Source: Coptis chinensis (taxonomy: Eukaryota > Streptophyta > Magnoliopsida > Ranunculales > Ranunculaceae). Taken from it: DNA of 64,000 nucleotides. The stretch lies in contig CM027381.1 of NCBI GenBank assembly GCA_015680905.1, forward strand, positions 69,057,501 through 69,121,500. Direction: 5' to 3'. The translations under genes were made by a program, and so were the position numbers. The notes beneath the pieces were generated by a model. That model worked only from the letters and a program-made list of their open reading frames with translations, made no database searches and was not told the origin of the DNA. Of this stretch, positions 3,511 to 30,238 are shown in pieces. Position 1 is the first letter of the stretch; each line of letters opens with the position of its first letter.

Positions 3511-4209
3511 TTAAAAAATTATGAAGCCTGAAGAAGAAACAACAGGATCGAGTGCAAACTCGAGATTCCTTTGAAAGGGTGGAAGGAGGGGCATCGAGGT
3601 GGTTGTTGTGCAAGTTAGTTCTTGATAGGGTGAATTGTCACCTACTCGAAGAAACTCATCAAATTCCTCATCTAGATTGGTCATATCCACATTACTATGG
3701 TAGTCCTCTACATCTTTGAGAAAGTCATCTATCCCGTCCTCATCAATAATATGTGTATCGACTAGTGTAGGAATGAAAATGTTGGAGTCTGACTTTCCAA
3801 AGGAAAGAATTTTGGGCATATGATCATCATGGAACGTGTTGTTGAAATAATCTCGAGCAAAGCTCTCGATCATGCTAACCTCTCCATCCATAGACGAATC
3901 GGGTAACTGTGTCCTTGTTTTAAAACATTGACTTCAACAGAAAGATGGCCAAAAGACATGGACATTGAACCATCACGGCAATTAATGAGCGCGTTGGCGG
4001 TTGCCAAGAAAGGGCGCCCTAAAATGATCGGACACAGAGTCGTTAGCGACTTCAGATCGAGGACTACAAAAATCAGCCGGATAGTAGAAATCCCGCACTT
4101 TTACAAGCACATTTTCGACTACACCCTTAGGGTACTTAATAGACCGATCGACTAATTGCAACGTCATTTTAGTGGGTTGCATTTTGTCTAGACCTATTTG
4201 TCTATACAA
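3511..4209 (-). pseudogene. protease/linker region of Athila/Tat-like pol (fossil)
   Basis: Two minus-strand open pieces. The one at 3982-4209 carries LQLVDRSIKYPKGVVENVLV, followed by a FYYPADF stretch, well known from the retropepsin end of Athila-lineage polyproteins. The one at 3511-3891 resembles the spacer that separates protease from reverse transcriptase in this group, with many Asp/Glu residues. No reverse-transcriptase motif follows, so the rest of pol appears to be lost. Broken fossil. Confidence 0.7.
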
Positions 4210-5074
4210 ATAAAATGGGAGTAAGTTAACACTAGCCCCCGTGTCTAATAACGCTGGTGGTCGATAGGAATCTCCTAAGGTGCATTGTGCAATGGGGCGA
4301 CCGGGGTCCTTGTACTTAACAATTCCATTATGTTCGATAAGGTTGGGAATTGTTCGTTAAAAGCGCCTTTTGGTATATTTGTCTTACGCCTAGTAGTACA
4401 CAATTCCTTAAGAAACTTAGCATGGTGTGGTAGCTTTTTATAGCTTCGAGGAAAGGAAGGTTTATAGTTAGATTCTTGAAAACATCCCTAATCTCCTCGT
4501 AATTTGTATCTCTAGTTAACATGGCTAATTTTTGTGGAAACGGTGGTTTCGATATTTAGCAATGGTATCACCGGATGTTTAACCGTGGCTTTTGTTTCTT
4601 AAGTTGTGTTTATAAATGGGACCTCTACGGTGGTAGGCTCTTCAGTTTCTATTTCGCATCTAGTAATATAGCAGGTGTAGGGGCTATCTTGGTGGGGTAA
4701 CTATAGGCATAGTTACTTTGGTATCAACCACTCTGCCGTAACGTGAGTGGTGATGGCATTTATCTCACCTACATTTTCATATTCATTACTAGTATTATCG
4801 GTGACCTCAAAGGCGTGTGTTTGTTGTTTTAGGATTAGGTATTGCGCTTACCGGAAACACACCTTTGGGTTGGGCTTTATCTTGAGCCAACTGTTGGGTT
4901 AAATTATTTACGGATTGTAGAAGCCGTTGGTTGGATTGAGCCATGGTTTGGAAAAGTTTTTGCTCACTTGTATAAAGGTGTCAAGACGATCCTACCGTGG
5001 GGTGTACTAGTCACGCGTGGTGTGACCGAACTATTTCCGTGAATTATTTATTGGTGGATTTTGATAGTTATTAT

Positions 5075-8261: not shown

Positions 8262-8667
8262 GTACTCGCTAAACCCCAAAATCTTTCAACTATTACCTAA
8301 TAGTTGATCTAGAAACATGTCACCCCGGTTTCATCTTGTTTGGGGGTGTGCATAGTCTAGGGGGAATCTGACGTAAAAAGACCACACATACCTAGTCTCA
8401 AGAATCTGACTTAAAAAGACCCAACATAAAGTCTTGAGTATCTGACTTTAAACGACTCATTTTTCGTTACATTCAAGTAATGCCACAATCAGATAACCGC
8501 GCTATTCTATTTGGAGAGATAGTTGTAAGTGTCAGCTCTTTCGACCAAATAACTCGTGTATTCCAATTTAGTACTTGATGGGTGGTAAGGTAATGTTTAT
8601 CAATGACGTGAGTTTATTTGTTCAACATATTAGCGAATAATCTGTATTTGCTAAATCATTCCACCAT
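8262..8667 (+). mobile_element. internal fragment of LTR element B (left part)
   Basis: This 0.4-kb block is an inverted, diverged copy of 11622-12028, which lies inside element A. It contains TTGTTTGGGGGTGTG and repeated words of the type TCTGACTTAAAAAGACCC. It fills exactly the space between the LTR at its left and the LTR of element A at its right. It is best explained as the left stump of a plus-strand element (B) that A entered; the right stump is at 25184-27495. Confidence 0.65.
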
Positions 8668-9818
8668 TAATCTTTCTATAAAACAGCGGTCAGGTTTGTC
8701 ATTTCGTTCACATTTCAATAAAATTGCAAAAGTTTATTTATAAACAAAACTAATCTGATCACGTGATGTTTGTGAAAGTGAAATTTGGTGAGAAAATGAT
8801 GAAAATAAACTAAAATAAACTTTGATTTCGGAGATAGAAAATCCATTTGAGCGAATCATATCTCCGTTTAGTCTCGATTTTTTATCCCAAACAACGACTC
8901 TTCATCTCTGAACGAGCGTTATTAGCGCGTGGAATCGATTCAGAACCCCATCTATGGGTGAACTTACTCGGTTCCTAATCATTATAATTATCGAAACACC
9001 CTCCCTAATGGATATAATCCTCACTTGGGCAGAATTTCTGCTTCAAAATCACATAAACTAAATTGTTATTCTAATTAACATAAAATAAAACTGAATTAAA
9101 AACATTTTAATTAAAAACTGGAAATTAAATTCTTCATACTAGGAAAGTAGTAAACTACTCTACTCCTACTGATGGAATGCTAACCATTCCATCCGAAAAA
9201 CTGAAACTAGACCCATCTATTTATAGTTTTTTAGACGGTCTAGATTCAATCCATCTAATCTAAATATAGCGGTTATAAATAAAATATAATATCCTAGGGA
9301 ATATTCTAAGAATATTCTCTAGAATAGTAATAGGCTTGGACTAAATAGTAATAGGCTTTGGCTAAACCGTACAACCATTTTTTGGAAGCTAGATACTGTT
9401 GCGTAGAGTTTTCTGCGCTGATCAATTTAGTTGGTCGAATGCATGAATCAAAGTTAGGAGCCGGAAGATATCACCATTTGAAATTTTCTCCTGACTTTCG
9501 GGCTGATTTAGGTTAGTTTGACCAAAATATCTTCTTTAGCTGGCTTAGGGACTCAAGTTTGGATTTTTAAACTTGTTTCATGGTTCTCTGAGTCCATGAG
9601 CTTTGCTGGTAGTATGGAGTTTTAAATGAGCTGATACTGAAGATTTCAAGTCCAAGCTTTATTCGGCTATATTTCATGCTAAAATGCAGGTTTTGTGTGT
9701 ATTTTATTGTTGTCTGTTGAAACCTGTGAAAACATGAAAATACAATTAATTTACATTTATTAAACACATAATTGACCCAAATATAATGTCTCTATGGGGT
9801 TTAAAACACAGTTTATCA
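8668..9818 (-). repeat. 3' LTR of element A
   Basis: About 1.15 kb. It starts TGATAAAC on the minus strand at 9818, next to the G-rich tract GTTTGGGTGGT. It matches 24140-25183 in the same orientation and 26307-27495 in the opposite orientation over almost its whole length. A TATA-like CTATAAATAGAT occurs on the minus strand near 9215-9225. Confidence 0.8.
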
Positions 9819-12800
9819 ACCACCCAAACAGCATTTTGCTTGTCTTCAAGCAAAGAAGAGACACTAAAACAAATAAGTGGCAAAAAATGTGTAGTCCTAA
9901 GCTAATTCTCGTTTTGTAGAGTGCGATTGCATTGACCGTATGCAACAAGGCCTTAAACCACTAGGAATTCTCTAGTGGACGAGTTTTAGCCTCGTGAGAG
10001 TTTTCTAGAGAAGATACCCACAAATTTCACCTATACTACAACAACTCAGTAACAAAGGCTTGTTCCCTAAATTAGATATCAGATATCTATACATCTCACT
10101 AGCGGGAAATGAAGATTAATTCCTTTGAAACCTACATTAATAAATGTACAATAATCAAAACATCTGCATATGAATATGCATGCAGTGGGCCATTTCTGGA
10201 TCCTTCGGAGAGCGTCCTTAAGTAGGTTCTCATAGGTATGTGTCGAAACACAAATTCTCTCATACTTTTCACTCAAGTTTTGCTTACTCAAGTGTGCAGT
10301 GGCCACACGTTTCCTCACATTCTCAATGACGTCCAAGAAAGTCGAGGTCAATCAATCACATCTACTACTTACTATCACACCATCCTACTCCTAATTGAGC
10401 TAAAGGTCTTTATTAGGTATTAGGGGGCTTAGGAAGTGGTTTAGAAGGAATGAAAGGGATAACAAAACAATGAGTTAGAGAAAATATGGTCTTCAAATAA
10501 TTACTGGAGAAAACCTAGTGTTCTTCTATTTCAAAATTGTTCCATACTTTTGCCCTTTTTGGCTTTTCTACTCCATTTGATTTTATTTTTGGAGTTTATA
10601 ACTTTGTTTTTTTTTATTCTTTTTTCATGGAATTTACTTTTTCGTGGTTTTGACAGAGCTAACTGGATTCATCAATTAGCGCCAACTAATAGAATGATTT
10701 TTCGTATTTGTATAGGTCTTTCTCTTCTTATTTATACTCTTCATCATATTTCTCAAACTCATCAGATATGGATATGGGTAAAGAAATAATGGTTAAAAGA
10801 TGAAATGGCTAATATAAAGGTTCAAAGGGGAAAACTAGGGGAAATACATTTTTTTGGGTTTGTATATTTTTTATTTGGCTATAACGGTCCAAAGAATGCC
10901 TAAATTCTCGCCTAGGATATGGCATAGTGATCAAGTAAGTGGACGTGTGATTTCTTTCTACTCAGAATTGCTTCATCCTTGGGTCATTACTCAGATACAC
11001 TTATGTTGAGGCTTTTTGGCTAGATTCTCACTGGATTTGGAAATTAAGTATTCTAGCCGTAGGTCCCAGAAACTTACTACTATATATGTATAGTCATTGA
11101 CACTCATTGCATGAATATTCATGAAAAGATGTAAAAACTATTGCGTACGTATTAACATAAGTTTCTAAGAACCAATCCTAATTCTAATGCTAATGTGAGA
11201 TTTCTAGGCAACTTTCATTACATAAAAGGAAACAAGACCTTTATTACTAAATATGAAACTATTTTTTTTTATTTTTTTTTATTTTTATTTTTATTTTATT
11301 TTTAGAAAGAAAGAAAAATAAATAACCTAAAAGTGCCTAATTTTTGCAAAATGTTTCTCTCCCACCCCAAACAAATGGATGCTTTGTCCTCAAAATATCA
11401 AGAGAGATAGGGAAAGAAATTACCTGAGAAACGTGAGCAAAAATTCGGTCGAAAAAATTACAGCATGCAACAAGAAAATTGAAAATAGGAAACCAATCAA
11501 AGAAAACAACCAAAATACACACATATATATAGACATAATAATTTAGGTCGTTTATAGTCATATTCCTAAGACTTTTATCAAGCATAAGGATTTGTAGAAA
11601 CCCTTGGCATTCGCACCCAGATGGTGGAATGATTTAGCAAATACAGATTATTCGCTAATATGCTCAACAAATAAACTCGCGTCGTTGATAAACATTACCC
11701 TACCACCCATCAGGTACTAAATTAGAATACACGAGTTATTTGGACGAAGGAACCAACGCTTACAACTATCTCTCCAAATAGAAGGGCGCGGTTACCTTAT
11801 TGTGGCATTACTTGAATGTAACGGAAAATGAGTCGTTTAAAGTCAGATACTCAAGACTTTGGGTCTTTTTAAGTCAGATTCCCGAGACTTGGTACGTGGG
11901 GTCTTTTTATGTCAGATTCTCCTAGACTATCCACACCCCCAAACAGGATGAAACCGGGGTGAAATGTTTCTCGATCAACTATAAGGGAATAGTTGAAAGA
12001 TTTGGGGGTTTAGCGATGGTATTTTTACGCACCCGTGTCAAGATAAAAAATGAAAATGCATCAGAAGTTGTCTTTCATAAGGCTTAGATATGTAAAATAG
12101 GACAGATTAGCATTTTTTATTTTATTTTTTTTAGATACTCATTCGAAAGATTGTTCTCAACAACGGAAATGATTGATTTATCTCTTGTATGCAAGGGTAA
12201 AGGTTTGTTACTCTTAGGTTGGTCTACATTTTGATTTACCATGATGGTAGAAAATTGTTGTATGTAGTAGATTCTCTAAAATTATGTTTCAGGTAATCAT
12301 ACGTTCTAAACATGCATTAATGTTAAACCACGATTCTAAACATGCTATCATATCATTTTCAAAAGGCTAAGATTGATTTTTGTTCAAGTAATCTAATCAT
12401 GCTTGGAAATTGCATATAACCCTTTGACAGGAGATTCAAGAGAGAGAATAAAGAAAACGTACCTTCCTAAGTTATGCTTACATGCACTTGGGTTCGAAGA
12501 TGACTTGAGTGGCTATTGACCTGTTGACAATTCGGGGTCAATGCCGCTCACCTGTTATTTAGAAAATTATTACATACTTATAGAAGCCCACAAACCAGGC
12601 TGAAAATGGTGGCACAAGGCCAATAAGTTACAGAGTTTGCCTTCGAGGGCTTTATTACAACAATAAAATAAACAAAGAAAATTACTTATATAAGTTTTAA
12701 AAAAAAAAATTATTATTATTATTATTTATTTTTTTATTTTTAAAAAAATAAAATAAAATAAAATGTATGGTGCTTGGACGATGAAAATTAGGGTCCACAA

Positions 12801-13047
12801 TTCGGGGTCCACAACCCATAGAAATTACCTAAGTCTCTAAGAATGCCACCTTACAGGCATTAAGTCCGGAAGCCACTACACAGATAGCATAGTACTGGTA
12901 CTCCGCCTTCTTTAATAGCACGAAGTTCACTTTTTTCATCAGTCAACACTCATCAAAGCATCAAGGTAACAGTGCCAAGCCAGAACAATTCACTTAGACG
13001 TAGCAGAGAGGTAGCAGTAGAGCAACAGCATAATGACAAGGAATATA
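9819..13047 (-). other. 3' interior of element A, no genes seen
   Basis: 9819-10910 is repeated inverted at 25184-26306 and includes a block ending in TTGGCGCTAATTGATGAATC (minus strand, near 10680). 11622-12028 is repeated inverted at 8262-8667. 11250-11310 and 12690-12760 are A/T-rich low-complexity runs. No coding sequence was recognised. The open frames here are short and low in complexity. Confidence 0.6.
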
Positions 13048-13620
13048 CACTATACCAAAACAGGACATCCCTAACAGTCAGAAACCGTTACTAAAAATAT
13101 TTGTAACGGTTTTTATGCGTCACAGTTTGGGCGTTGCTAATTCGTTATTAATATTCGTAACGGTTTATAACCGTTACATAATTATTTATTGTAACGGTTT
13201 CTAACCGTTACTAAAATATTTACTAACGGTTTTCTTTGCTCAATTGTATTACTCTTTAGCAACGGTTTTATAAAATTAGTAACGCTTTTTGGTGTTACTC
13301 TTTTTAACATCGATAGATTTTTATAACATTAGTAACGCTTTTTGTGTTACTCTTTTTAACATCAATAACGGTTTTATAAAAAAATAGTAACGCTTTTTGT
13401 GTTACTCTTTTCTAACATTAGTAACGGTTTTATAAAGTTATTAACGCTTTTTATGTTACTCTTTTCTAACATTAGTAACGCTTTTATAAAGTTAGTAACG
13501 CTTTTTGTGTTACTCTTTTTAACATTAGTAACGTTTTATAAAGTTAGTAACGCTTTTATTGTGTTACTTATTGCAAAGCTTAGTAACGGTGAAGAACCGT
13601 TACAAAACTATTTCATACGT
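13048..13620 (+). repeat. left sub-terminal repeat array of CACTA element
   Basis: Repeats of GTAACGGTT and its reverse complement fill the first 180 bases. From about 13240 to 13600 a tandem array with a unit near 60-65 bases follows, each unit holding GTAACGGTTTTATAAA, TAGTAACGCTTTTTG and GTTACTCTTTT words. Such arrays bind transposase in other CACTA elements (family knowledge). The right end has sparser GTAACGC/ACGTTAC words at about 22760-22890. Confidence 0.85.
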
Positions 13621-14615
13621 AAAAAAAAAAAAAATCCCCAAAACAACCCCTCCCCCTCCCTTTTTGGGAGACTACTTAACCTGCATAAAGATGCCCCCAC
13701 TTATTGGGTATTTTACAATCGTCCATAATATAAACAAGAAATCTTACAAGTACATCCAATCACATAATCTTTTATTAAAATAACATCACCAAAACGTCTT
13801 TCATAAATAGGATTTGCCACGAATGAAATACACACTATTTTACAAATCAATGGGACTTGTCCTTAAACTCAAGCTCTCATATCATTTGTACAAAACTAGC
13901 ACCTTCAAGAGTTGTAAGCATCGGGGGGATGACTTTGGGATTGTATCATCGAAAAAGTCCCTTTCATCCTATACACCAATAGAAATAAATAAAAAGAGTC
14001 GAAAGCAAGAGAAAACAAATATGTATATATAGATATATACTTATATCCTATTCTTAAGTAGTAGCTCCTTATACTCAAACTACGGAATTCAGAAAGCAGT
14101 ATGGTAGCATAATTCTTAAGTAGCGGTATGTTTTGTCCCTTCCAAGAGATCGAAAAGTTCAAGATTTATTTTCACCGGTCCGACAACCAAACTCACAAAA
14201 AATGTGGCAACAGGGTCTCATACTCCTAACAATATGAGCAATTCAAACTCCAATAAACTGTTCCACTTGAGCAGTCTTCAAAGATCCTACTTTTGACACT
14301 GTTTTGTGCCTTCCAGAAAAATATTTGACGCAAGGAGGTGTTCTCTCGTCTCATATACAACCCTACAGACTCTATTAATTCCATGGGAAGAGTAAGAGAA
14401 CAGTTCTATTGATTATTACTAAAGAAGCTCATGAAGTCCAAAAAAAGCTATATGCTGAAGATTACTGACCACTACTAGTGTGTATCTACGGGTATGATCA
14501 TACTATTTGCAACAATTCTTTAAGGTTAAATAGCTAAACAAAGTAAACAAAAACAAACAAAATCATTCACAACAATTCTTTGGAGCTTTCAAGAAATTTT
14601 CGCAAACACGACACC

Positions 14616-15223
14616 TTATACAGCAGTTTGTACTTGAGCAGATTCTAGAACGAGATTAACGTATTTGTAAGTACGCAAAGAGAGTGCCTTGGTGTTTTCA
14701 ATAATCTGTTAAGTACCTGCAAATCAGATCGAGAGAAGAAAGGGGAGTGAGTTGGAAAGGGCTAGCCGACAAAGAAGCAAAATGAATGCTTAGCGGGGAG
14801 GAACACCGGTTGAACACTTACACATTCACATGATTGGGTTCCATGACAACAGTTTCCGACTTGGAATCAATATTTCGCGTCAAGCTTTGAATTTCGCACA
14901 AGATTCACTATCCATCTTTCAGCCTCGTCATAAGTCATATTCAACTTTTCCGCCAAGTGTTACATCGGATATAAATGATAAGACGGATGAATGGACACTT
15001 GAATTTCTGCACGTCACAAATTACTAGGCGAACAAAGTGAAACTAATTTACATATAAAACTGATTCTTCAAGTTAGCATTTAATTACCCTATATCAATGC
15101 ATCGATGTATTTGCACTAAGTTTCAAATATGAAAAGACGGGCATTTTCGAAAACTCATCCCTCAAAGGTAGTAAAGTTGCCTTCTTCAACACGTTTTCCC
15201 AAGAAAGGATCATTCAAGATAAC
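14616..15223 (-). pseudogene. captured 3' exons of eIF3 subunit e
   Basis: Three exon-like blocks on the minus strand match the C-terminal part of translation initiation factor 3 subunit e (INT6, PCI-domain protein). 15117-15223 holds NDPFLGKRVEEGNFTT. 14822-about 14956 holds [20 protein letters not shown] and, after a one-base insertion, SKSETVVMEPNHVNV. 14616-14716 holds TKALSLRTYKYVNLVLESAQ and a stop codon at 14616-14618. The splice between the last two blocks is intact (GTAAGT donor, TTGCAG acceptor) and keeps the Val-Tyr junction. Introns are present, so capture was from DNA, not from mRNA. Frame changes in the first two blocks and the missing N-terminal part make it a pseudogene. It is part of the CACTA element and downstream, on the same strand, of the sugar transporter piece. 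Confidence 0.85.
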
Positions 15224-15559
15224 CCGCACGAGTCCGAGATTCAAAGGCAAAAAATATTTGAGACATGCGAAAGCGAAGCATAAAATGCAACGTGAAACAA
15301 TCACAAACACATAAAATAGCATCAAGCTTATGTAAAGATCACAGATGCATATCTTCTCCCCCACCAAACAATTACTAAAAGCATAGGTACAAGTACGCAC
15401 ACCTAGAAGGTTTCAAGTGATGCAATCAGCTGTAACAGTGACGGTGTCGTATTCTACTCAAAACATCCCCGTCAAACAAGTAGTCATTCTATATGAACAA
15501 CTTACACGGAGCACTGGAGTGGAGGAACGTACCTTGAGAGTGGAGAGAAGACCTGGAGC

Positions 15560-16323
15560 ATTGGAGTGGAGGCGTGAGATAGTTGAAAGTGAGGAACGAT
15601 CATCAGTAGAGTTCCCTTAGACATTACAACCCAATGAATTGCTCCCATTCCTATTGAGAATGAACCAATATATAGAGCTGCGAAGTTCAAAGAAAAGGTT
15701 TTGATGTACTATTAAGTTGAATTTTGACTTGTGGAAATGAACTTATCTAGACATAGTATAGTTCAATAACCCGGTGCTAGTCACGGCAAGTGCAGGGACT
15801 ACTTCAAGTGATAACTCATGGCTCTGTTCCACATAATTATGATGCATTATATTAGGGATCTCAAAGGCAAAAAAGTTAGAACATAAATAATTTTAGCACC
15901 AGCACCTTTAAATAGAAGGAAAGAGCAGCTATCAAATAGCGAGGAGGACCACCCCTGTTCTAGAAGTCTACAAGTGCAAATCATCAGGCCTTATATTCAT
16001 CAAAGAGTGATACTTTAAAATTCTGAGCTAGAGGCTATTACTACCACGTACCACAAGAACGAATCGTTTTCCAGCTATATCGACTAAACTTGCACCAAAT
16101 GCAGTTACTACGACCTGTAAATCAGTATTAGACACACATCAACTTTGAAGATAAAGAATGGTATGGGTATGGGTATTACAATGAAGGGATCTACTTATAA
16201 CAAAGTTTAGGAGGTATATATTTACCTGCAGTAGCAAAAATTCCGCTCGTATAGAAACATACTCCATTTATTCCTCCAAATTGTAGGCAAACCATCAATG
16301 TTCCAACTCCAGATAGAGTGTTA
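15560..16323 (-). pseudogene. captured exons of an ERD6-like sugar transporter
   Basis: Three exon-like blocks on the minus strand match the major-facilitator monosaccharide transporters of the ERD6-like family (vacuolar in known plants). 16226-16323 encodes SGVGTLMVCLQFGGINGVCF and ends FATAG at a GTAAAT donor. 16052-16114 encodes VVVTAFGASLVDIAGKRFVL between a TTACAG acceptor and a GTACGT donor; normal family members have GRR or GRK where this reads GKR. About 15560-15685 encodes LYIGSFSIGMGAIHWVVMSK, after which the match is lost. The rest of the transporter (12 membrane helices, about 480 residues) is missing. Introns are kept, again indicating DNA-level capture. Not functional as a transporter. 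Confidence 0.8.
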
Positions 16324-16639
16324 CTGCACCTTATATGCTTAAGTCCTATACAATATCCAACTCTTTCACATCCATCAAACAAAAAGTCAGGGTCACAAGG
16401 CCACAAACAACTCTTTCACAAAAAGTCATAATAGTAGAGTGTGATTGACCGGAGAGCTTACATGCACGCACACTTTTAGTACATATTACATCTAAATCCC
16501 CACAAATAACAATTTTACATACCTTACTAATTTATATATTAAAAGTGAATAATAAGATCCTAATCTCCACAAGTCATGCTCTAAGCGACCCCAATAAAAT
16601 AGCCGGGAGCAAATACAAGATTATATATTGAGGCAATAT

Positions 16640-19165
16640 CGACATCCATCATGATTATAAAGGATGTACAAATGGGAGTCAAAACAGAAAGTCAAAACAA
16701 AAATGGGCTCTATATGGAGATGACTGCACAAATTATTTCCATAAGATGGTTAAGGAAAGGAAATCAAGAAATCTGGGGTTTGATTAGAGCAAATGGAGAC
16801 AGAACTGAATCTGAGGAAGACGTCCGAGAAGAGATAGAAGGCTACTACAAGGAATTACTGGGCTCACAAAATCCAAAACCTTGTAATGCAGATACCCTAA
16901 ATGAGTTCACCTTCAAAAGAACACTAAACGATCAACAATTAAGCAATTTGGAGGAGGATATTACTGATGAAGAAATAACTGAAACACTTTTTTCTATTGG
17001 CAATGACAAGTCGGTAGGACCAGATGGGTATGGCTCTTATTTCTCTAAGAAGTATTGGGTAATCATTAAATGGGACTTCCTAAAAGTTGTAAAGAATTTC
17101 TTCATATCAGCTAGAATGCTCAAGACAGTCAATGCCAGAAATATCACTCTTGTTCCCAAAGTTGAGAACCCTAACACGGTGGAAGAGTATAGACTATAGA
17201 GTATAGATCAATTGCATGCTGCAATATGGATTACAAAACTATATCTAAAGTGCTAGCAAATAGGATGAAAAGAGTTATAGGGTCTATTACTTATGAAAAT
17301 CAGCGTGCCTTCATCCCTGGAAGACATTCAAGACAATTTACTTCTCACTCATGAGTTACTTCGGAAGTACCATAGGAAGTGGATCTCCCCGATGTACACT
17401 CAAAATTGACCTACAAAAGGCTATGACAATGTACAATGGCAGGCAATTCTTGATATCTTGACCAAAATGGGGTTCCCTCAGAGATATATCACATGGATTC
17501 AGTCTTGTATGACTACACCATCCTACTTGATCATCATTAATGGTCAGCCTGTGGGTTTTTTTCAAGGTAAGAAGGGCATAAGACAAGGAGACCCATTATC
17601 TCCTTCTCTCTTTATCCTACTGATGAAGGTTCTAGCAGCTCAGATGGAATGGGCAAGACAAACCAAGCTTTTTAATCTCCATCCAAAATGCTTCAATCCC
17701 ATTATAACTCACTTATGCTTTGCAGATGACCTTATGATATTCTGCAAAGCTGAATTGTCTTCCACTCAAGCAATCATAAGTATTCTAGAAAGTTTTGGAG
17801 AGGCATCAAGTTTAAATATGAATCATAATAAGAGCAAAGACATCATGGCAGCGGGACTCTCTTTACGCATGTTATTGGGGTCGACTAGTCTTTGCCTCCA
17901 ACAAAGTATTTGGGGATGCCTCTAATTACCACAAGGTTAGAAATAAGTGATCGACCTCTCATTGAGGCAATGACTAGAAGAGTTAAGTCATGGAAAGCAA
18001 AAGCACTCTCTTATCTTTGGCAGATTGCAACCGATTAAATCGGTGCTAATAAGCATTCAAGTATATTGGGCGAGAACTCTTATAATGCCCAAAGCTATCA
18101 ATCGAAGGTCTACAACAAATTTGTACTAGATTTCTCGGCTCTCTCAAAATGGCAAGGAAAATTCACCCTATAAATGAGAATACACTATGCAAAAGCAAAG
18201 ACTGTGGTGGACTGGGTATCATATAGATAGAGGACTAGAGCAAAGCAGCTATTTGTGGGCTGGTGTACAAGATTGCTACAAAGGAAGACAACTTATGGGT
18301 CAAATGGATGTGGAGAAATAGAATCAAATCAAAGAACTTCTGAACTATGACAATTCCACATGATTGCTTGTGGTCTCGGAGAAAAATGCTCCAGTGTAGG
18401 AAGCTAACTCAAGGAATTACAGATGGAACACCTCCTTTTGGCATCACAAATGGGCCAGTCTTGCTTATAGAGTTAAGCCACTCCAAAGAATTAAAAGCGA
18501 CCTCGGGCATACCGTAGAAAATGCACCGGTGAGCATCATGATACAAGCAAGGCACTGGAATTGTGCTAATCAACCCTCCCAACAACCTGTTAAAGAAGGT
18601 ATAATGAACGCTAAGTTGAGCGAAAGACACGCTAAAGATGTATGGACATGGACTGCAACAACTACTGGTACATATTTTACAAAATCAGCATATGAAGCAA
18701 TTAGAGGGCATGGACAACAAGTGTGTTGGAGTACAATGGTGTGGGGTCAATGGTCTCTACCTAGACACAACTTTATGATGTGGCAAGTACTATCCGAGCC
18801 CTCCTTACCCTCGACAAATTGGTGCGGCTCAAAATCTTAACTTCCTCAAGATGTATCCTATGTAATTCGCGCCAGAGAAAGCATTCAACACATTTTCTTT
18901 AACCGTGGGCACACAAAGACACTCTGGAAGGAAGTAAACAAGATTGTGGGATACCAAAGAATAATTTTAGAAGCTTCGGGAAGAATGGAAATGGATTCTC
19001 CGAGCTTAAAAAAGAAGAATTACTTTGTTGAAATTTTTCAAGTTTGCTATGCAAGTACTCTACTGGTTATGAAGGGACGAAATAAGAGAAAATTCAAGAA
19101 ACGAGTATGTGATGAGAGGACTTTACTCAACGTGAAAAGCAAACTTGATCAAGTGGATACTTGAT
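16640..19165 (+). mobile_element. L1-type LINE, 5'-truncated, inside the CACTA element
   Basis: Plus-strand remains of LINE ORF2. 16651-17199 covers the linker between endonuclease and reverse transcriptase and the start of the latter (NDKSVGPDGYG). 17458-17925 holds the core: GVRQGDPLSP-like GIRQGDPLSPSLF and the catalytic FADD box in HLCFADDLMIF. About 18630-18840 is a zf-RVT-like stretch (FTKSAYEAIRGHGQQVCWST). Endonuclease is absent. Stops and frame changes interrupt the domain (for example the stop at about 17197 and a frame change near 17400), so it is dead. No poly(A) tail or clear target duplication was found, so it is unclear whether it jumped in or was captured with flanking DNA. 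Confidence 0.85.
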
Positions 19166-22000
19166 ACTTGTCCCCCAAGGCTTGCACACGATTAAATATA
19201 GCAATATTCAATTTGGGCACTTGCTAGTTTAGCACAAATTTAAAGGGGTGGTGATCTGATAACCAACAACAAACATAGTACTTTTAATTATCTTTTAAAT
19301 GGCATGCAATAAAAATTTTACCTTTGTTAAATAACCACGCAATCCTTCATCTACATTCGAGCTACCCAAGACCAGATAAAATCCAGGTTTATTGTGTACC
19401 CAAGGCATGAGTGACGAAAAACATAAATGCCGACACCATTACGATCACGAGCTTGAATATTTTGCAATCCTAAGTTTTCAGAGTTGGATCCCCATCTACC
19501 TGCACAAACCAGAAAGATGGTAACTACAATCAAAATAGAATTAATGATTCTTCATCACTATAATTACAGCTAGACACTACAAAAATCTTTTATAACAAAA
19601 GAATTGCAAAACAATCGCGGATAAAAAGTTTAGAAATGCTATGAAAAATGCAAGTGATAATAACAGTAGATAGGCAATACAACAAACCTGATCATATACC
19701 AAGCAGTGGCATCCTTTATTAAATTGAAAAGATAATTACATAAGACACTCAGATGAGATAGTATAAAAGCTAGTAAAACAGAACCACCAAAAGAGGGTTT
19801 CTGCAAAGCTTATGCGTCAAAACGGTACAGTGCTACCTCTATCAATATGGATTAACATACTCCTTGACTTTAAGGTCCTTTTATATCTCTTTCCATCTCA
19901 TGCCAAAAACAAAAACTTCCAAAACAATAGTTTTTTTCTTAGTAGCCTATGTAAAAAAATCACAAAGACAACAAACAAAAGAAGTAACCAGCTTACGCCT
20001 GGCTACACAAAGCAACCTTAGTACCTTACTAATATTTTCATAGCAAAAGAAGCAGTGGATCTTGTAACTAGGGGAGGTATCCATAATTTTTTTGCAAATG
20101 GGGGTCATCCCTAACTAACCCTTCTTATAATTGTTGCTTCCGCCAATCATCATCCGCATTAAAAGCAATAAATATTTACCTTATAACGAGAGCTTTCCGG
20201 TTAGTTATGCGGAACAAAGAGAGCAAAGCGAAAAATAACACTATCTATGCAAACATCAAGATGCCAGGATCCAATCTCATCTGCGAGAACCTTTGCTTGC
20301 AACTTTGTTTCCTCCGAATTGTAAGGAAACATACATTGACCATGGTCAGAGCTCACTTATTATAGGAGTGCAACACAAACACAGAGCATTTAACTTCTAC
20401 TTTCAAAAAAATTAGTTCTACCATTTATCACTAAAATTTGGTACTTTTAGTAATGTCCCCGCTAAAGGTTCGATTTCCAAAGGAACGATGGGTAACTCGA
20501 CCATTTAATAAATCCAATTAAATTTGAATTCCACCAAAACGAATTTGGCTTCATAGAATTCTGTCTCTCCAACTAATGCCCGAAGTAATTCGGGAACGCA
20601 CCTTAATTACACGAGAGATAGATTTTTAGCAAACAACGGATACATCAAGGTTCTTGCTCACCTTCAGTTTTTAAATATAGATGCATGACTTTTTTTTTTT
20701 TTGCACTGTCGTCAAGGCCCAACCCTACAAAGAGGGACTACACCAACACTTAAGCTTTGAGGGTAGCTAGTTGTTACGAACACACTAGCCATCCATACAC
20801 TTTTAACAAACAAATCCCCATGTATGGATTAGCTCTTTGTTAAACTAAGTTCGAACTAGCCACAACTTTGTCCGAGGTCGTGGCTGATTATATAAAGGTG
20901 CCAAAGTTCACAAATTTCTTGCACTTGAGATGTAATCCGTTCATGGAATACATAGTCACTCAAGATACTGAAATGAGGACATTAAAAGAAAAGCTGAAAA
21001 TCATTATAGTCGCCCTTGCTGATTTTATAAATTAAGGATTTAAAAATACCGATACAAAGCATTTTAAGTTTCCAAACGGCAATATTAAGAATCAAAGGAA
21101 CAAAAATGAAACAAGTACCGTGATAAATTAAGTAACGGTTCAAGATCAAAGTCTCACCTGTTTTCGGTTCCCATGAAAACGTGTAAAAAAATCGTTTGGC
21201 AAACTCTTTGCTATCGGTTGAAACCCGACCATCGGCATAATTGCCAATTAAGTATTGCATCGGCTTTGACTTGCTCATCACCATTTGCTATTTTTGCATG
21301 ATTATTTGGGATCAATATATAGAAATAGAAGGCAAGAAATACTCGAGGGGTTTTCCATACATACGGGCTCATTAAGGCTTAAAGATATAAAATGATCGAC
21401 TTATATTGTAGCCACATAATAAAATATTAAGACCTACAATATGCAAACTTTAGGGCTCGATAACTCGACCTTCTACTACAAGTTGGCACATGCGACCAAC
21501 AATAGCAGCTCTGAGGAGGAGCTATCGCTCCACCGTAAAGCGGAAGCAGAAAACCGAGGCACCACTCCTCCTTAAATAGTCCCATAGCCAACAACCGTGT
21601 CCATAAGCTATCTCCTGCTCAGGGGAATGATATGTGATCTGCAACAATGTGGTGAAAACATGATAGGTAAGACACAATTTTGAACATGCTTCATTACATG
21701 GGAGATATAGAGAGAAAATGGAGATATGGGGTTATCCTTTCAAAAAGAACAACAAACCTTCAATGGCCTAGAGAGTGGCGTTTGGTGCTTAAACGATCGG
21801 CATAGATTATATTGTACTCTGACCGATGGAACTACTGCTGCTTCACTTGCTTGCTGTTGGAAACTACTTATTGATCCCCTTAGACTATTAACCTTTAATA
21901 AGATTACAAGTAAGAGCAAGAGTTAGTGGTATATATGCAATTACACTCTTGCCTTCAGCAGTACTCTAGCTTCATATGAGATCCTAACAATGTCAAACCA
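19166..22000. other. CACTA interior with exon-like pieces of unknown origin
   Basis: No known gene was recognised. Two minus-strand blocks look like former exons. One, about 21175-21290, is open and ends in a GTGAGA donor, encoding YLIGNYADGRVSTDSKEFAK and FFYTFSWEPKTG. The other, about 19380-19515, follows a GTGCAG acceptor. They may be further captured host sequence; the source gene is unknown. The rest is non-coding and AT-rich. Confidence 0.35.
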
Positions 22001-22290
22001 TAAAAATACAGAATTTTTGCATTCCGAAATAACAGAAGAGCAAAATCAAAACCACAAGTAATAAAATCAAACCACAAGTAATAAAAACCGAATAAACTAA
22101 CTACATACAGAAGAGCAAAATCAAACCTAGTAATAAAAATCAAACCACAAAAATCAAACCACAAAAATCAAATTTTTTAGGTAACAGAAGAGCAGAATTT
22201 TTACTAACTACATACAGAAGAGCAAAATCAAACCACAAAAATCGAATTTTTTAATGAATAACACAAGTAATAAAAATCGCACCTTTGGTT
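22000..22290 (+). repeat. short tandem repeats near the CACTA right end
   Basis: Imperfect repeats of AGAAGAGCAAAATCAAACC and CAAGTAATAAAAATC words in variable order. Just to the right, 22465-22575 repeats CTTGTTGAACGAGAGAGGCG. They are probably part of the sub-terminal region. Confidence 0.55.
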
Positions 22291-22911
22291 ATAACTGTAG
22301 CCAACCAACACCCAAGTTAATTTCAGTTGTGATATCACCTAGTAGTAGTGTGAAAAATTGAAAAAGAGATATGAGATGATGAAACATAGAAAATCATAGA
22401 AGAAGAAGGCGAAGGAAGTCGTTACCTAATAGCGCAAAGGCAATGCGCGGTAGTCTTGACTCCAAAACTTGTTGAAACGATGAACTTGAACGAGAGAGGC
22501 GATGAAAAGAGCGAAACTTGTTGAACAATAAACTTGTTGAACGAGAGAGGCGATGAACAATATAAAGCTTGTTCATAGTAATCTTAAATAGGAGAGAAAG
22601 AGCGTGATAATTTTGGTCTTTCCCTCTCACCGAAAATTCTTTTCTCTCACCGAAATTTTTTATTTAGAAATCTTAAATTCTAATTTAGTTATTATTTTAA
22701 TATTATATTTAATATTCACGATTTATTTACGCTTTTTGTCCAAAGAAACAATTTAAAAAACGTAACAAATTAATTCTCATATTTGGCAAAATTAACGTAA
22801 CACTTTATATATAATTGTAACGCTTATAAAACGTTAGGAACCTAGTTACACTTTAAAAACGTTACTAAGCAAAAAACTGGAGCGTTACTAATATCCTGTT
22901 TTGGTGTAGTG

Positions 22912-24126
22912 ATATTAAGCAATAGCGCACATGGACATCAGTAATACCTCCAATAGTTGCAACTAGTTATTAAATATTCACAAAAAGTCAAAAACCAAAC
23001 ACTGAGAAGCTCTTGTTGTGCACAGAGTCTTGTAGAAAAATCTAAAAAAAATAGTAGACAAATTAATGAAAATAGGTGAGAGCTTAATAGCTATGTCAGC
23101 CCACTATCTTTCAATTAAGAAACTCTCCTGTCATGTAAAACCTCCATAGCTGGTTACTTGCATTATCACAATTAACAAAAGCTCTCTACACCATGCAACA
23201 TCCTTCACACTCCTTACAACAACACACTAGCATCGGGGAGTTCACTTCATCCACCAATCTCTAGTCTACGACCTCATTTCTGTACACACTTGCAGTGTTT
23301 AACCACACACATAGACCTCACAAACAACATCACAAACACTTAGCAAATCAATTGCTCAACTTCAACGCCATTCACCACAACTTTCATTTACTATACAAAG
23401 AACAACAAGACTACACACAGACCAACTTCACCTTACAGAGAATCGTCCAGCAACACAACTCATCAGCTACACACATGAAGCAAGTTGCACTAGCAGCCAC
23501 TACTCAATACACCTCTGCACAACCATCACTCTAACTTACCTCAAGCCACCAAAACACAACCACCAACACCGAAAGTACAAACACCAGCACAGACACCTTC
23601 TAACTGACCTCAAGCCACCATCACTCAACACCACCTTCACTTCACCATACACCAGTTTTCAGTCACCCCCAACAACACCACAATCGACTTCAACAAAGCA
23701 CCACCAACAGCCACCACCGCCTCAACCCGGCACCCTTCTAATTCTTCAAGCAATCTTCACAGAACCTACAAAATAATCAAAGAAAAAGATTAGTGATGAT
23801 TGGGAGAGAAGATGGACACAGAGAAGAAGGAGACACAGACACAGACACATACACAGACACAGACGTAGAGAAGAAAGAAGTTGAGAAAGAAAGAAAATGA
23901 AGAAGAAGAAAGATGGGTGCAATTTTTGTTTTTTTAATTTTTGTTGTTTTTTTTTTTATTCAGTCAAAGAAAGGCCCAAAACCACCTATTTGCTAATTTT
24001 ATGGTTTTTTTCTTTTTTTTTTTTGAATTATTGTTTAGAGGAAAATGAAAAATTGTGGAGGGAATAGAAAATGATTATGGGAGTGTTGTGACCAAATTAA
24101 TTTATTTTACAAATTTTACTGAAAAT
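22912..24126 (-). other. 5' leader of element A, GT-rich on the minus strand
   Basis: Between the primer-binding site and the CACTA insertion. About 23160-23780 is strikingly poor in G on the plus strand (CACCA/CAACA words), so the transcript strand is GT-rich. 23820-23890 has ACACAGAC repeats. No gene seen. Confidence 0.5.
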
Positions 24127-24139
24127 GCAGCGGCGCCAT
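24127..24139 (-). other. primer-binding site of element A
   Basis: The minus strand reads ATGGCGCCGCTGC directly after the LTR end CAGATCA. It is the same site as in the neighbouring Athila/Tat-like element (6858-6873), showing that 24140-25183 is a 5' LTR whose interior lies to the left. Confidence 0.7.
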
Positions 24140-25183
24140 TGATCTGTCTGTAAAATAGCGGTCGGGTTTGTCATTTCTTTCACATTTCAATAAAATTGCA
24201 AAACGTTATTTATAAATAAAAACTAATTCGATCACGTGATGTTTGTGAAAATGGATTTAGGTGAGAAAATGATGAAAATAAAATAAAATAAAATATACTT
24301 TAATTATGGAGATAGAAAATCCGTTTGAGCGAATCTTATCTCCATTAAAAGAGTTAGTCTCGATTTTTTATCCCTAATAATGACTCTTCATCTCTAAACG
24401 AGCATTATTAGCGCGTGGAATCAATTCAGAACCCCATCTCTGGGTGAACTTACTCGATTCCTAATCGTTATAATTATCGAAACACTCTCCCTAACGTAGA
24501 TAATCCTCACTCGGGCAGAGTTTCTGCTATGAGATTACATAACTAAATTGTTATTCTAATTAATAGAAAATAAAACTGAATTAAAACATTTTAATTAAAA
24601 ACTAAAAATTAAATTCTTCATTATACTAAAAAAGCAGTAAACTACTCTACTCCTATGATTGAATGCTAACCATTCAATCAGAAAAACTAAAACTAGACCC
24701 TTCTATTTATAGTTTTTCTGACGGTCTAGATTCAATCCATCTAATCTAAATCTAACGGTTACAAATAAAATATAATATTTCAGGGAATATTTTAGGAAAT
24801 ATGCTAGAAATATTCTCTGAAATATTCTAGAAATATTCTCTAGAATAGTAATAGGCTTTGGCTTTATCTTCATATTCCAAATTATACGACCATTTTTTGG
24901 AAGCTAGATACCATTGCGTAGAGTTTTCTGCGCTGATCATTTTAGCTGGTCGAATGCTTGAATCAGAGTTAGGAGACGGAAGATATCGTCGTTTGAAGTT
25001 TTCTCCTGACTTTTGTAGCTAGCTTAGGGACTCAAGTTTGGATTCTTCAACTTGTTTCATGGTTCTCTGAGTCCATGAGCTTTGCTGGCAGTTTTGAGCT
25101 TTAAATGAGCTGATACTGAAGATTTCAAGTCCAAGCTTTATTCGGCTGTATTTCTTGCTAAAACGCAGGTTTTGTATGTATTT
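24140..25183 (-). repeat. 5' LTR of element A (outer tip missing)
   Basis: Matches 8668-9818 in direct orientation and 26430-27495 in inverted orientation. The match stops at a junction near 25183, after GTATGTATTT, where the sequence switches to the interior of the inverted element B. About 130 bases of the LTR start are lost. Confidence 0.75.
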
Positions 25184-27495
25184 AGGCATTCTTTGGACCG
25201 ATATAGCCAAAAAAAAAATATACAAACCCAAAAAAAATATATTTCCCCTAGTTTTTCCCGTTGAGCCTTTATATTAACCATTTTATTTTTCAACCATTAT
25301 TTCCTTTCCCATGTCCATATCTGATGAGTTCGAGAAATATGATGAAGAGCATAAAAGAGAAGAGAAAGACTTATACAAATACGAAAATTCGTTCTATCAG
25401 TTGGCGCCGATTGATGAATCCAGTTAGCTGTGTCAAAACCAAGAAAAAGTAAATTCCATGAAAGAAAAGAAAAACAAAAAAACAAAGTTATAAACTCTAA
25501 AAATAAAATCAAATGGAGTAGAAAAGCCAAAAAGGGAGAAGTATGGAACAGTTTTGAAACATAAGAACACTAGGTTTTCTCCAGTAATTATTTGAAGACC
25601 ATATTTTCTCTAACTCATTGTTTTGTTATCCCTTCTATTCCTTCTAAACCACTTCCTAAGCCCCATAATACCTAATAAAAGTCCTCTAGCTCAATTAGGA
25701 TAGGTTAGTATGATAATAAGTGGTAGACGTGATTGATCGACCTCGACTTCCTTGGACGTCATTGAGAATATGAGGAAATATGTGCTCACTGCACACTGGA
25801 GTAAGCAAAACTTGAGTGGAAAAATTATGAGAGAATTTGTGTTTCGACACAGACCTATGAGAACCTACTTAAGGACGCTCTCCAAAGGATCCAGAAACGG
25901 CCCTACTTGTACATTTCATTGTAAAGTATACTACATGCATATTCATATGTAGATGTTTTGATTATTGTACATTTATTAACGTAGGTTTCAAAGGAATTAA
26001 TCCTCGTTCCCCGCTAGTGAGATGTATAGATATCTAATATCTAATATCTAATTTAGGGAACAAGCCTTTGTTACTGAGTCATTGTAGTATAGGTGAAGTT
26101 TGTGGGTATCTTCTCTAGAAAACTCTCACGAGGCTAAAACTCGTCCACTAGGGAATTCCTAGTGGTTTAAGGCTTTGTTGCATACGGTCAATGCAATCGC
26201 ACTCTGCGAAACGAGAATTAGCTTAGGACTACACATTTTTGGCCACTTATCTGTTTTAGTGTCTCTTCTTTGCTTTATGACAAGCAAAATGTTGTTTGGG
26301 GGTGGTTGATAAGTACCCAAAACTGTGTTTTAAACCCCGTAGAGACATTACATTTGGGTCAATTATGTGTTTAATAAATGTAAATTAATTGTATTTTCAT
26401 GTTTTCACAGGTTTTGACAGTCAACGTTAAAATACACACAAAACCTGTGTTTTAGCAAGAAATACAGCCGAGTACAGCTTGGACTTGAAATCTTCAGTAT
26501 CAACTCATTTAAAGCTCCAAACTGCCAGCAAAGCTCCTGGACTCAGAGAACCATGAAACAAGTTGAAGAATCCAAACTTGAGTCCCTAAGCCAGCTACAA
26601 AAGTCAGGAGAAAACTTCAAACAACGATATCTTCCGTCTCCTAACTCTGATTCAAGTATTCGAGTAGCTAAAATGATCAACGCAAAAAACTCTACGCAAT
26701 GGTATCTAGCTTCCAAAAAATGGTCGTACAATTTGGAATATGAAGATAAAGCCAAAGCCTATTACTATTTAGTCCAAGCGGCCCATTACGATTCCAGAGA
26801 ATATTTCTAGAATATTTCATAGAATATTTCTAGCATATTCCCTAGAATATTCCCTGGGATATTATATTTTATTTATAACCGTTAGATTTAGATTAGATGG
26901 ATTGAATCTAGACCGTCAGAAAAACTATAAATAGAAGGGTCTAGTTTTAGTTTTTTTGATGGAATGGTTAGCATTCCATCAGTAGGAGTAGAGTAGTTTA
27001 CTACTTTTTTAGTGTAATGAAGAATTTAAATTCCAGTTTTTAATTAAAATGGTTTTAATTCAGTTTTATTTTCTGTTAATTAGAATAACAATTTAGTTTA
27101 TGTGATCTCGGAGTAGAAACTTTGCCCGAGTGAAGATTATCTCCATTAGGGAGGGTGTTTCGATAATTATAACGATTAGAAACCGAGTAAGTTCACCCAG
27201 AGATGAGGTTCTGAATCGATTCCACACGCTAATAACGCTCGTTTGGAGATGAAGAATCGTTATTAGGGATAAAAAATCGAAACTAACTCTTTTATCGGAA
27301 ATATGATTCGCTCAAACGGATTTTCTATCTCCGAAATCAAAGTCTATTTTATTTTATTTCCATCATTTTTTCACCTAAATCCACTTTCACAAACATCACG
27401 TGATCGAATTACTTTTTGTTTATAAATAAACTTTTGCAATTCTATTGAAATGCGAACGAAATAACAAACCCGACCGCTGTTTTACAGACAGATCA
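25184..27495 (+). mobile_element. LTR element B, right part: 3' interior and 3' LTR
   Basis: Plus-strand. 25184-26306 is the inverted equivalent of 9819-10910 and includes TTGGCGCCGATTGATGAATC at about 25400. The polypurine tract TTTGGGGGTGG precedes an LTR at 26307-27495 that starts TGATAAGTACCC and ends CAGATCA. It has no coding capacity. With 8262-8667 it forms one element interrupted by A, with about 0.7 kb missing at the break. It borders the copia fossil at 27496. Confidence 0.7.
26307..27495 (+). repeat. 3' LTR of element B
   Basis: 1.19 kb with TG...CA ends and a TATA-like CTATAAATAG near 26925. With 24140-25183 it forms inverted arms of about 1.05 kb around a spacer of about 1.25 kb. 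Confidence 0.8.
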
Positions 27496-30238
27496 GTACT
27501 CAAGAAAGCATGATGAGATGAAGTGATATTGGCATACGTTATATACTCCTGTAGAGGATATGAAACGTCATGCAATGAATAAAAATCCCTGTAAATCACT
27601 GGGGGATGCAGTTCTCTATCAGATTTATAGTAATCCTTGAGAGTTACTGGAGGTCGTCTCTCTCGTTCTGATTGTCAAGAAACTGGAGGTGCTGGAGGAG
27701 CTGGAGGAGCTAGAATGTGCGCCCTTTAGTTGCTTTCGGATGAAAGCGCCGCCGCGTGCCCGCAATCATCGTAAAAGTCGTCATGGAGTGAGGGGCGGCG
27801 CCCTTGGTTGTTCAAGATGTGAGCACGCCACGCCTTCTCAGAACCTATAACTTCAGTAGGTTCAATAACTTCTGTGGCAGGAACTATATCTTCACCAACT
27901 TCTGTGAGAGGTGCCAAATCTGTCAAACATTCCCCCTGGGACCGATTCCCAGGCACAGCTGAATCCTGGAAAAAAAAAACTTCAAATTCTACAAATCGTA
28001 CATCACGAGAGACAACCAGTTTTCTTGTCGCCGGATTGTAACATATGTAGCCATAACCAATAAAAATACATCGAGTAGCCTGAGCATCGAATTTGTCTCG
28101 ATTAATAGCTTGATGATGCACATAACAAGCACACCCAAACACTTGCAAATGAGAGAGATCCAGCGGCCTAGATTTGAGCACTTCCAATGGGGATTTAAAA
28201 CTAAGAACCCGACTGGGAAGACGATTAATCAAATAAGCAGCAGTTAAGACGTCATGAGACCAGTATTGCTTAGGAACATTCATGCCCAACATAAAAGCAC
28301 GAGTGGTCTCCAAAAGGTGTCTGTTTTTTTTTCAGCCACGCCATTCTGCTGAGGTGTGCCAACACAGCTAGTTTGATGAATTATCCCCTGGTTACGAAGG
28401 TACACAGGTAACCGACCTTTGCAAAACTCAGTGCCATTGTCAGATCTAAACATCTTGATTTTTGCACCAAACTGATTAGTAACCATAGTATGAAAATCTT
28501 TAAAAACATTCACAATCTCAATCTTCAATTTCAACAAATATAACCATGTAGCATGAGATTTATCATCAATAAACAAGACAAAATACTTATAGCCATCATA
28601 AGAATTAACGGGAGCAGGTCCCCATAAATCAGAGTGGATTAACTTAAACAAATTATTAGACATAGTATGAGAGCTTGGAAAAGGGAAATGAGTCTGTTTA
28701 GAAAATTGACAAACATCACCAGAGTTTATAGAAACATGTAGAAACAAATTTGACAGGACATGACTAGATGGATGCCCAAGTCTTTTATGCAAAATGCGAC
28801 TATCAAGTAACCCACTAGCTTGACATGTCTTTTTATTCGACTTCAACAAATAGAACCCATTGGAATAAATTCCTTCACCAATCGTCCTCTTTGACTTTCG
28901 ATCCTGAAAGACGACAGAGTTAGGAGAAAAAATGACATCACAATTTAAAGAATTTGTAAGTTTGCCAACAAATAGAAGTTGGATAGGGAAGGAAGGAACA
29001 ACTAGAGCGTCACTCTTGAGACTTTGATTAAAAAAATCCACTTGACCACTACCTAGAATGGGAACGGTGGATCCATTAGCTATGGAAATATTATGTTTGT
29101 CGGTTTTGGACACAAAATTATGGACAGAGGCAGGGCAATTAGTCATATGATCAGTAGCCCCCAAATCAATTATCCACGAGTGACTATTTTCTGGCATAGT
29201 AAAATAGGCATGTAAATTACCTGACACATGAGTTGAGACATACTGACCTTTGCCAGATGGCATGGACTTAGTGAGTTGTTGGAGAATTTGACTCAACTGA
29301 TAACTAATATCTGAGTTGGAAATTGATGTCTCGGCTACTGCGGCATGATCTTTTTTGGACAGTTCCTTTTTAAGATGCGGATACAATTCCTAACAACAGT
29401 CCTTGGTGTGCCAGTTTTTTCCACAATGATCACAGTGAGACGGTTCCCTTTTTCAAATCTCTGTGACTTCTTTCGAAAATCATTTTTTGCAAGTAATACA
29501 GTAGATTCAGATATTGAAGACTTCACCTCGGAGTTCATAGTTTTCTTCCTTGTTTCATCTCTCTGAATAGTTGCACAAACAGCAGCAAGTGATGGAAGAG
29601 TGATTTCCATTAGAATATTGCTTTCTAGATTTTCATATTCTGAGACTACGAAATACTGTGAAGATTTTATCCTCTTCAGCCCGTTTCAAAAGAGTCTTAG
29701 CATCTGTGGTGTGTGGACGATATATGTTTAACTCATCCCACAATTTTTTAAGATTCCCAAGGTGTTCAGTAAAAGTCTTCTCACCTTGTTGCAAAGCACC
29801 GATTGCAAGTTGAAGTTCAAAAACACTAGCAGAATTGTTCTGGTTTCCGTATAAATCTTCAATTGAATCTCACATCTCCTTTGCAGAATCAGAAAAAGTA
29901 AAAAATCCAACAATAGTTGACTCCATCGAATTGAGTAACCAAGATCGAACAAGCTGATCATTGGAAACCCAATTCTCGTATTCGGCATCATCAATGGCAA
30001 GACACACCTTTACACCATTAATGAACCCTGATTTCCTCTTGCCACCTAGAGATAGCGAAACAGCCCTTGACCAAGGTATATAGTTAGTTTCATTCAAAAG
30101 AATTGATGACAGCTTCCAACCGGGATTAGAATCAGTCTCTGTTGTTACAACAGACTTAGGGGTTTGGTTTTGGATCTGTCATAGTTTTTTTGTGTTTGAG
30201 TAAGTTGAGATTGATTGAGAGAAGAGATTAAGCGCGCC

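Follow-up and report, generated by a model that had tools for sequence, protein, structure and literature searches.

The closest described element to the one reported here is Tgm-Express1, a 5.7-kb CACTA transposon of soybean. It contains five fragments of host genes, and splicing places their exons in chimeric transcripts, as set out in the abstract and Discussion of the original report (Zabala and Vodkin 2007, PMC1947982). Both elements are CACTA transposons built of unrelated host-gene fragments that retain exons and introns, but Tgm-Express1 has its five fragments in 5.7 kb, was inserted into a known gene, in one of its introns, and has exons for which splicing was demonstrated, whereas the element described here spans 9.9 kb, holds three fragments and is known from sequence alone. 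It also contains a LINE, a feature for which the abstract and Discussion of PMC1947982 hold no mention in Tgm-Express1. As Tgm-Express1 is a precedent of the same build, our element belongs to a kind already known. The Pack-CACTA elements found in Arabidopsis, maize, and rice are likewise non-autonomous CACTA elements that captured coding DNA, which in maize often stems from several loci, and, in the account available from PMC8903248, their annotation kept clustered elements and discarded singletons. CACTA-like elements of Chenopodium also contain host-gene fragments, but the relevant passages of PMC8978399 place these upstream of a conserved TAD domain with coding sequence present, whereas no transposase domain was seen here. 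A CACTA transposon together with eIF3e gave no match in the literature searched, and the 17- and 13-letter end strings of the element were absent from the full text of the same literature. The absence of the end strings carries little weight and says little on the novelty of the family, which the initial annotation had taken to be previously undescribed, because transposon families are often deposited in databases only.

Ends and subterminal repeats of the element

The window, by which we mean the whole 64-kb stretch of DNA analyzed, appears from its content to be plant nuclear DNA with a high load of transposable elements. The element and its ends were placed as follows:

13048..22911, no strand assigned: very probably a non-autonomous Pack-type CACTA element, 9,864 bp, with inverted ends and an ATA duplication
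13048..13065, plus strand: left terminal inverted repeat CACTATACCAAAACAGGA, by pattern match
22894..22911, minus strand: right terminal inverted repeat CACTACACCAAAACAGGA, by pattern match
13045..13047: left copy of the target-site duplication ATA, directly outside the left end
22912..22914: right copy of the target-site duplication ATA, directly outside the right end
13072..13613: subterminal array at the left end, made of GTAACGGTT/GTAACGCTT in two orientations and partly built of ~52-55-bp units, from motif counts and repeat families D1-D5, I1, I3, and I4
22723..22895: subterminal region at the right end, where copies of the GTAACG[C/G]TT motif are sparse and diverged, with one exact GTAACGCTT at 22817 and five TAACG/CGTTA cores within the final 200 bp

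The 18-bp inverted ends are identical at 17 of 18 bases, and the sequence CACTA[T/C]ACCAAAACAGGA is read inward from both 13048 and 22911. Both ends (13048-13065 and 22894-22911) match CACTAYACCAAAACAGGA with 0 mismatches, and allowing up to three mismatches returned these two matches and no others in the 64-kb window; 0.20 matches were expected in shuffles, and two were reached by 2 of 100 shuffles. Over 28 nt, the arms of the element are 82% complementary. Inverted repeats that start with CACTA and a target-site duplication of 3 bp, as known for the CACTA superfamily, are thus both found here, with ATA on the two sides. The initial annotation had proposed CACTA ends and an ATA target duplication, and both proposals hold: the ends through their 17/18 identity and their being the sole two matches in the window, the duplication through the copies at 13045-13047 and 22912-22914. 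The extended end gave 0 matches against viral contigs, a result of little weight for a plant element.

For the motif GTAACG[C/G]TT (GTAACGSTT), 16 copies were counted in the window, where 0.71 would be expected. Every one of the 16 is inside the element: 13083-13603 holds 14 of them, and single copies are at 21132 and 22817. The short core of this motif, TAACG/CGTTA, was counted 79 times in the window, 29 of these in the element, where the left 600 bp contain 20 copies, the right 200 bp contain 5, and the other 4 are in between. Over the whole window this core is rarer than chance (79 vs 138.6 on average in 20 shuffles of the same base composition), so that only its clustering at the element ends counts. 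Subterminal repeats in two orientations, as expected near both ends of a CACTA element, are therefore strong on the left and weak on the right, and the arrays first described are real and confined to the element but lopsided. Imperfect direct repeats (CAGAAGAGCAAAATCAAACC and related units) were also observed at 22009-22279, in the right part of the element.

Six-frame Pfam scans of the element, in which stops were written as X, found no transposase domain at E up to 1, at a sensitivity that very short or decayed remnants could escape. The TNP2/TNPD-type transposase domains by which an autonomous En/Spm element is recognized were absent from these six-frame scans, and a transposase gene is lacking at Pfam sensitivity, as in Pack-CACTA (Pack-TYPE) elements. 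The same scans uphold the earlier statement that no recognizable transposase lies inside.

Other repeats and remnants in the window

Several other features were observed outside the element. To its left, the segment at 8266-12016 lies between ~400-bp inverted repeats that are 90.5% identical and both begin TCGCTAAACCCC; it resembles a further DNA transposon of the type with long inverted ends, and no target duplication was recognized around it. To the right, 24136-27495 is framed by ~1.05-kb inverted repeats (24140-25183 and 26430-27495, 90.5% identical), which also match parts of 8664-10905 at 83-86%. A broken retrotransposon pol, which we take to be Copia-type, occupies 27726-29389 on the minus strand, with matches to SH3_retrovirus, Pol_BBD, and the integrase core, and with gag_pre-integrs below the cut-off. 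At 3982-4356, likewise on the minus strand, weak aspartyl-protease matches that stay under Pfam's cut-off (E=0.0021) mark a possible Gypsy-type remnant, an RNase H-like open frame at 36324-36827 (RVT_3, E=1.4e-10) is possibly a LINE fragment, and a glycosyl hydrolase family 85 match at 54054-54401 (E=3.3e-4, just below Pfam's cut-off) is perhaps an exon of a host gene.

Gene fragments and a LINE remnant inside the element

The interior of the element holds fragments of host genes and a remnant of a retrotransposon:

14619..15220, minus strand: 3' fragment of an eIF3e gene, exon pieces at ~15220-15086, 14980-14821, and 14708-14619 with introns between, frameshifted
15616..16328, minus strand: sugar-porter gene fragment (MFS, presumably ERD6-like), exon pieces at 16328-16224, 16117-16031, and 15678-15616
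16690..19175, plus strand: degenerate remnant of a LINE (non-LTR) reverse transcriptase, whose outer limits were drawn by eye
19319..21644, minus strand: fragment of a glutamine-dependent NAD(+) synthetase gene, in several exon pieces that are separated by introns and frameshifted

Two captured genes in tandem on one strand, encoding eIF3e and an ERD6-like transporter, had been read from this interior at first. The arrangement on one strand stands, as all three host-gene fragments lie on the minus strand in one orientation, but the number does not: three host genes are represented (NAD synthetase, sugar porter, and eIF3e), plus the LINE. Fragments of host coding genes, the defining content of a Pack-CACTA element, are thus present.

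All four PDB matches of the eIF3e fragment were eIF3e chains, the best with E=2e-9 to residues 351-396 of 6zvj, and on the minus strand it gave PCI at 14980-14873 (E=4e-4) and EIF3E_C at 14708-14667 (E=0.034), both below Pfam's curated cut-off; these matches bear out the eIF3e exons claimed before. The piece at 15220-15086 is presumably also eIF3e, an assignment made from its likeness to the plant protein, and 15158-15412 against Pfam and NCBIfam returned an unrelated match alone (E=0.93). In the translations, the eIF3e homology switches frame within an exon, for example at 14873/14871. Between the transporter and eIF3e pieces, two 18-bp repeats (17/18 alike) whose starts are 47 bp apart were observed at 15508-15572 and are possibly filler at a capture junction.

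Two stretches of the NAD synthetase fragment match chain 6ofb in PDB, which we take to be the human enzyme: 21644-21471 corresponds to residues 322-379 (E=1.5e-7) and 19423-19319 to residues 496-530 (E=3.7e-4), in the order expected of a minus-strand gene. We also presume that the pieces near 21287-21157, 20330-20240, and 19500-19442 belong to this gene; against PDB, the first two gave unrelated matches only, and 19500-19442 had no supporting match in Pfam and NCBIfam.

For the transporter, all eight PDB matches of the first piece were SLC2/GlcP transporters (E 0.045-0.65), and the one plasmid sequence that it matched (E=3) is a bacterial protein with a sugar-porter annotation. The three pieces are collinear with this bacterial porter, at residues 251-270, 288-308, and 342-360. 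The score of the first piece against it was reached by 0 of 500 shuffles, with its tile ranking first of 10,650 window tiles, a comparison that is not independent because the porter was found with that same piece. The score of the last piece (15678-15616) was reached by 3 of 500 shuffles, while that of the middle piece (16117-16031) is not significant (356 of 500) and the piece is placed by order only; against PDB, this second piece gave unrelated matches only. A further upstream candidate at 15823-15769 was rejected as not significant (60/500, and 262/500 in another frame). Of the transporter exons in the initial annotation, what remains is a sugar-porter fragment at 16.33-15.62 kb, whose assignment to the ERD6-like subfamily is presumed, whereas 19200-22000 matches NAD synthetase in two stretches.

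The LINE remnant was recognized from RVT_1 at 17338-17844 (E=4e-21) and zf-RVT at 18673-18927 (E=2e-8), both on the plus strand and above Pfam's cut-off, and from a second RVT_1 match at 17199-17330 in another frame (E=0.0016, below the cut-off). Because the RVT_1 matches fall in two frames, the reading frame of the LINE is broken. Its extent beyond 17199-18927 is presumed from features typical of LINEs. The only exact repeat of at least 9 bases between 16380-16760 and 19000-19420, at 16726/19232, was considered as a LINE target duplication and rejected, as its first copy falls in sequence read as LINE coding. The LINE could be either a later insertion into the element or an arrival with the host DNA.

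Frameshifts and stops interrupt the gene pieces, with the homology shifting frame within exons in the translations, and no intact protein is therefore expected. Ten separate exon pieces compared with Pfam and NCBIfam gave no supporting match and three unrelated weak ones. GT or AG lies at most 2 bases from 11 of 11 printed exon edges, a count in which the edges were set by eye and without a chance control. As introns with GT-AG edges lie between the exon pieces, these were probably copied as genomic DNA, and the most likely history, as read from the sequence, is that they came with their introns and then decayed.

Origin and possible effects of the element

Our results make it very likely that 13048-22911 is a non-autonomous CACTA element (En/Spm-type) without a detected transposase that holds genomic fragments of three host genes. 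The proposal of a Pack-type CACTA element with captured host genes is thus supported by the ends, the duplication, the subterminal array, the lack of a detected transposase, and the gene pieces. From the target duplication and the occurrence of three unrelated genes together, we infer capture rather than resident pseudogenes inside CACTA ends. A resident segment of chromosome with three old pseudogenes, which happens to lie between the ends of two separate CACTA insertions and has not moved as a unit, would also contain fragments that seem intron-bearing and decayed, and the arrays at the two ends are indeed very unequal in length. However, the same ATA at both outer ends and the near identity of the ends are what one transposition unit should have, and no other end copy at up to three mismatches is found in the window, meaning that two complete separate elements are not present. 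We consider this explanation improbable.

For a captured origin, a sequence of events can be suggested from what is known of the family. A transposase from an autonomous relative would bind the ends and subterminal motifs and cut in trans, and insertion of the element generated the ATA duplication that we see. Host DNA may have entered when a stretch between two neighboring CACTA insertions was mobilized as a single unit, a route by which, in the part of PMC8903248 that deals with capture, neighboring insertions move together with the intervening DNA. Alternatively, excision gaps may have been repaired from host templates, which corresponds to the abortive gap repair cited in a passage of PMC8978399. 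A search for internal relics of CACTA ends gave a best match of 13/18, while 20 shuffled interiors reach 12-14. The missing relic does not separate the two routes, because the first permits deletion or mutation of the internal ends.

The splice edges seem to be kept, and a putative transcribed Pack-CACTA element could regulate its donor genes through chimeric or antisense RNA or through small RNAs. Antisense or chimeric transcripts against two essential host genes had been put forward as a possibility in the initial annotation. The exons of Tgm-Express1 are spliced into host transcripts, according to the abstract and Discussion of PMC1947982, and a review, in the section relevant here, reports that sequences captured by Helitrons, Pack-MULEs, and Sireviruses of maize, which are not CACTA elements, serve as siRNA reservoirs (PMC13317346), a role that would fit such regulation. 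However, the exons are frameshifted, and all three fragments point the same way: transcription from a right-end promoter would yield sense RNA, and antisense RNA needs a promoter at the other end. We regard a regulatory role of this kind as very improbable. If the element were transcribed from the right end, the product would be a sense, non-coding chimeric RNA, maybe spliced as in Tgm-Express1. It is extremely improbable that such putative right-end transcription, with the three sense fragments spliced into chimeric RNA or feeding small RNAs, couples the dosage of eIF3e and translation initiation, NAD synthesis, and sugar transport. Most likely, the element now does nothing for the host.

In conclusion, this element taken alone is a decayed copy and leaves current views unchanged. 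It is a further clear example of unrelated host-gene pieces held by a CACTA element in one orientation, with splice edges apparently kept, and as such it bears on exon shuffling by Pack-type elements.
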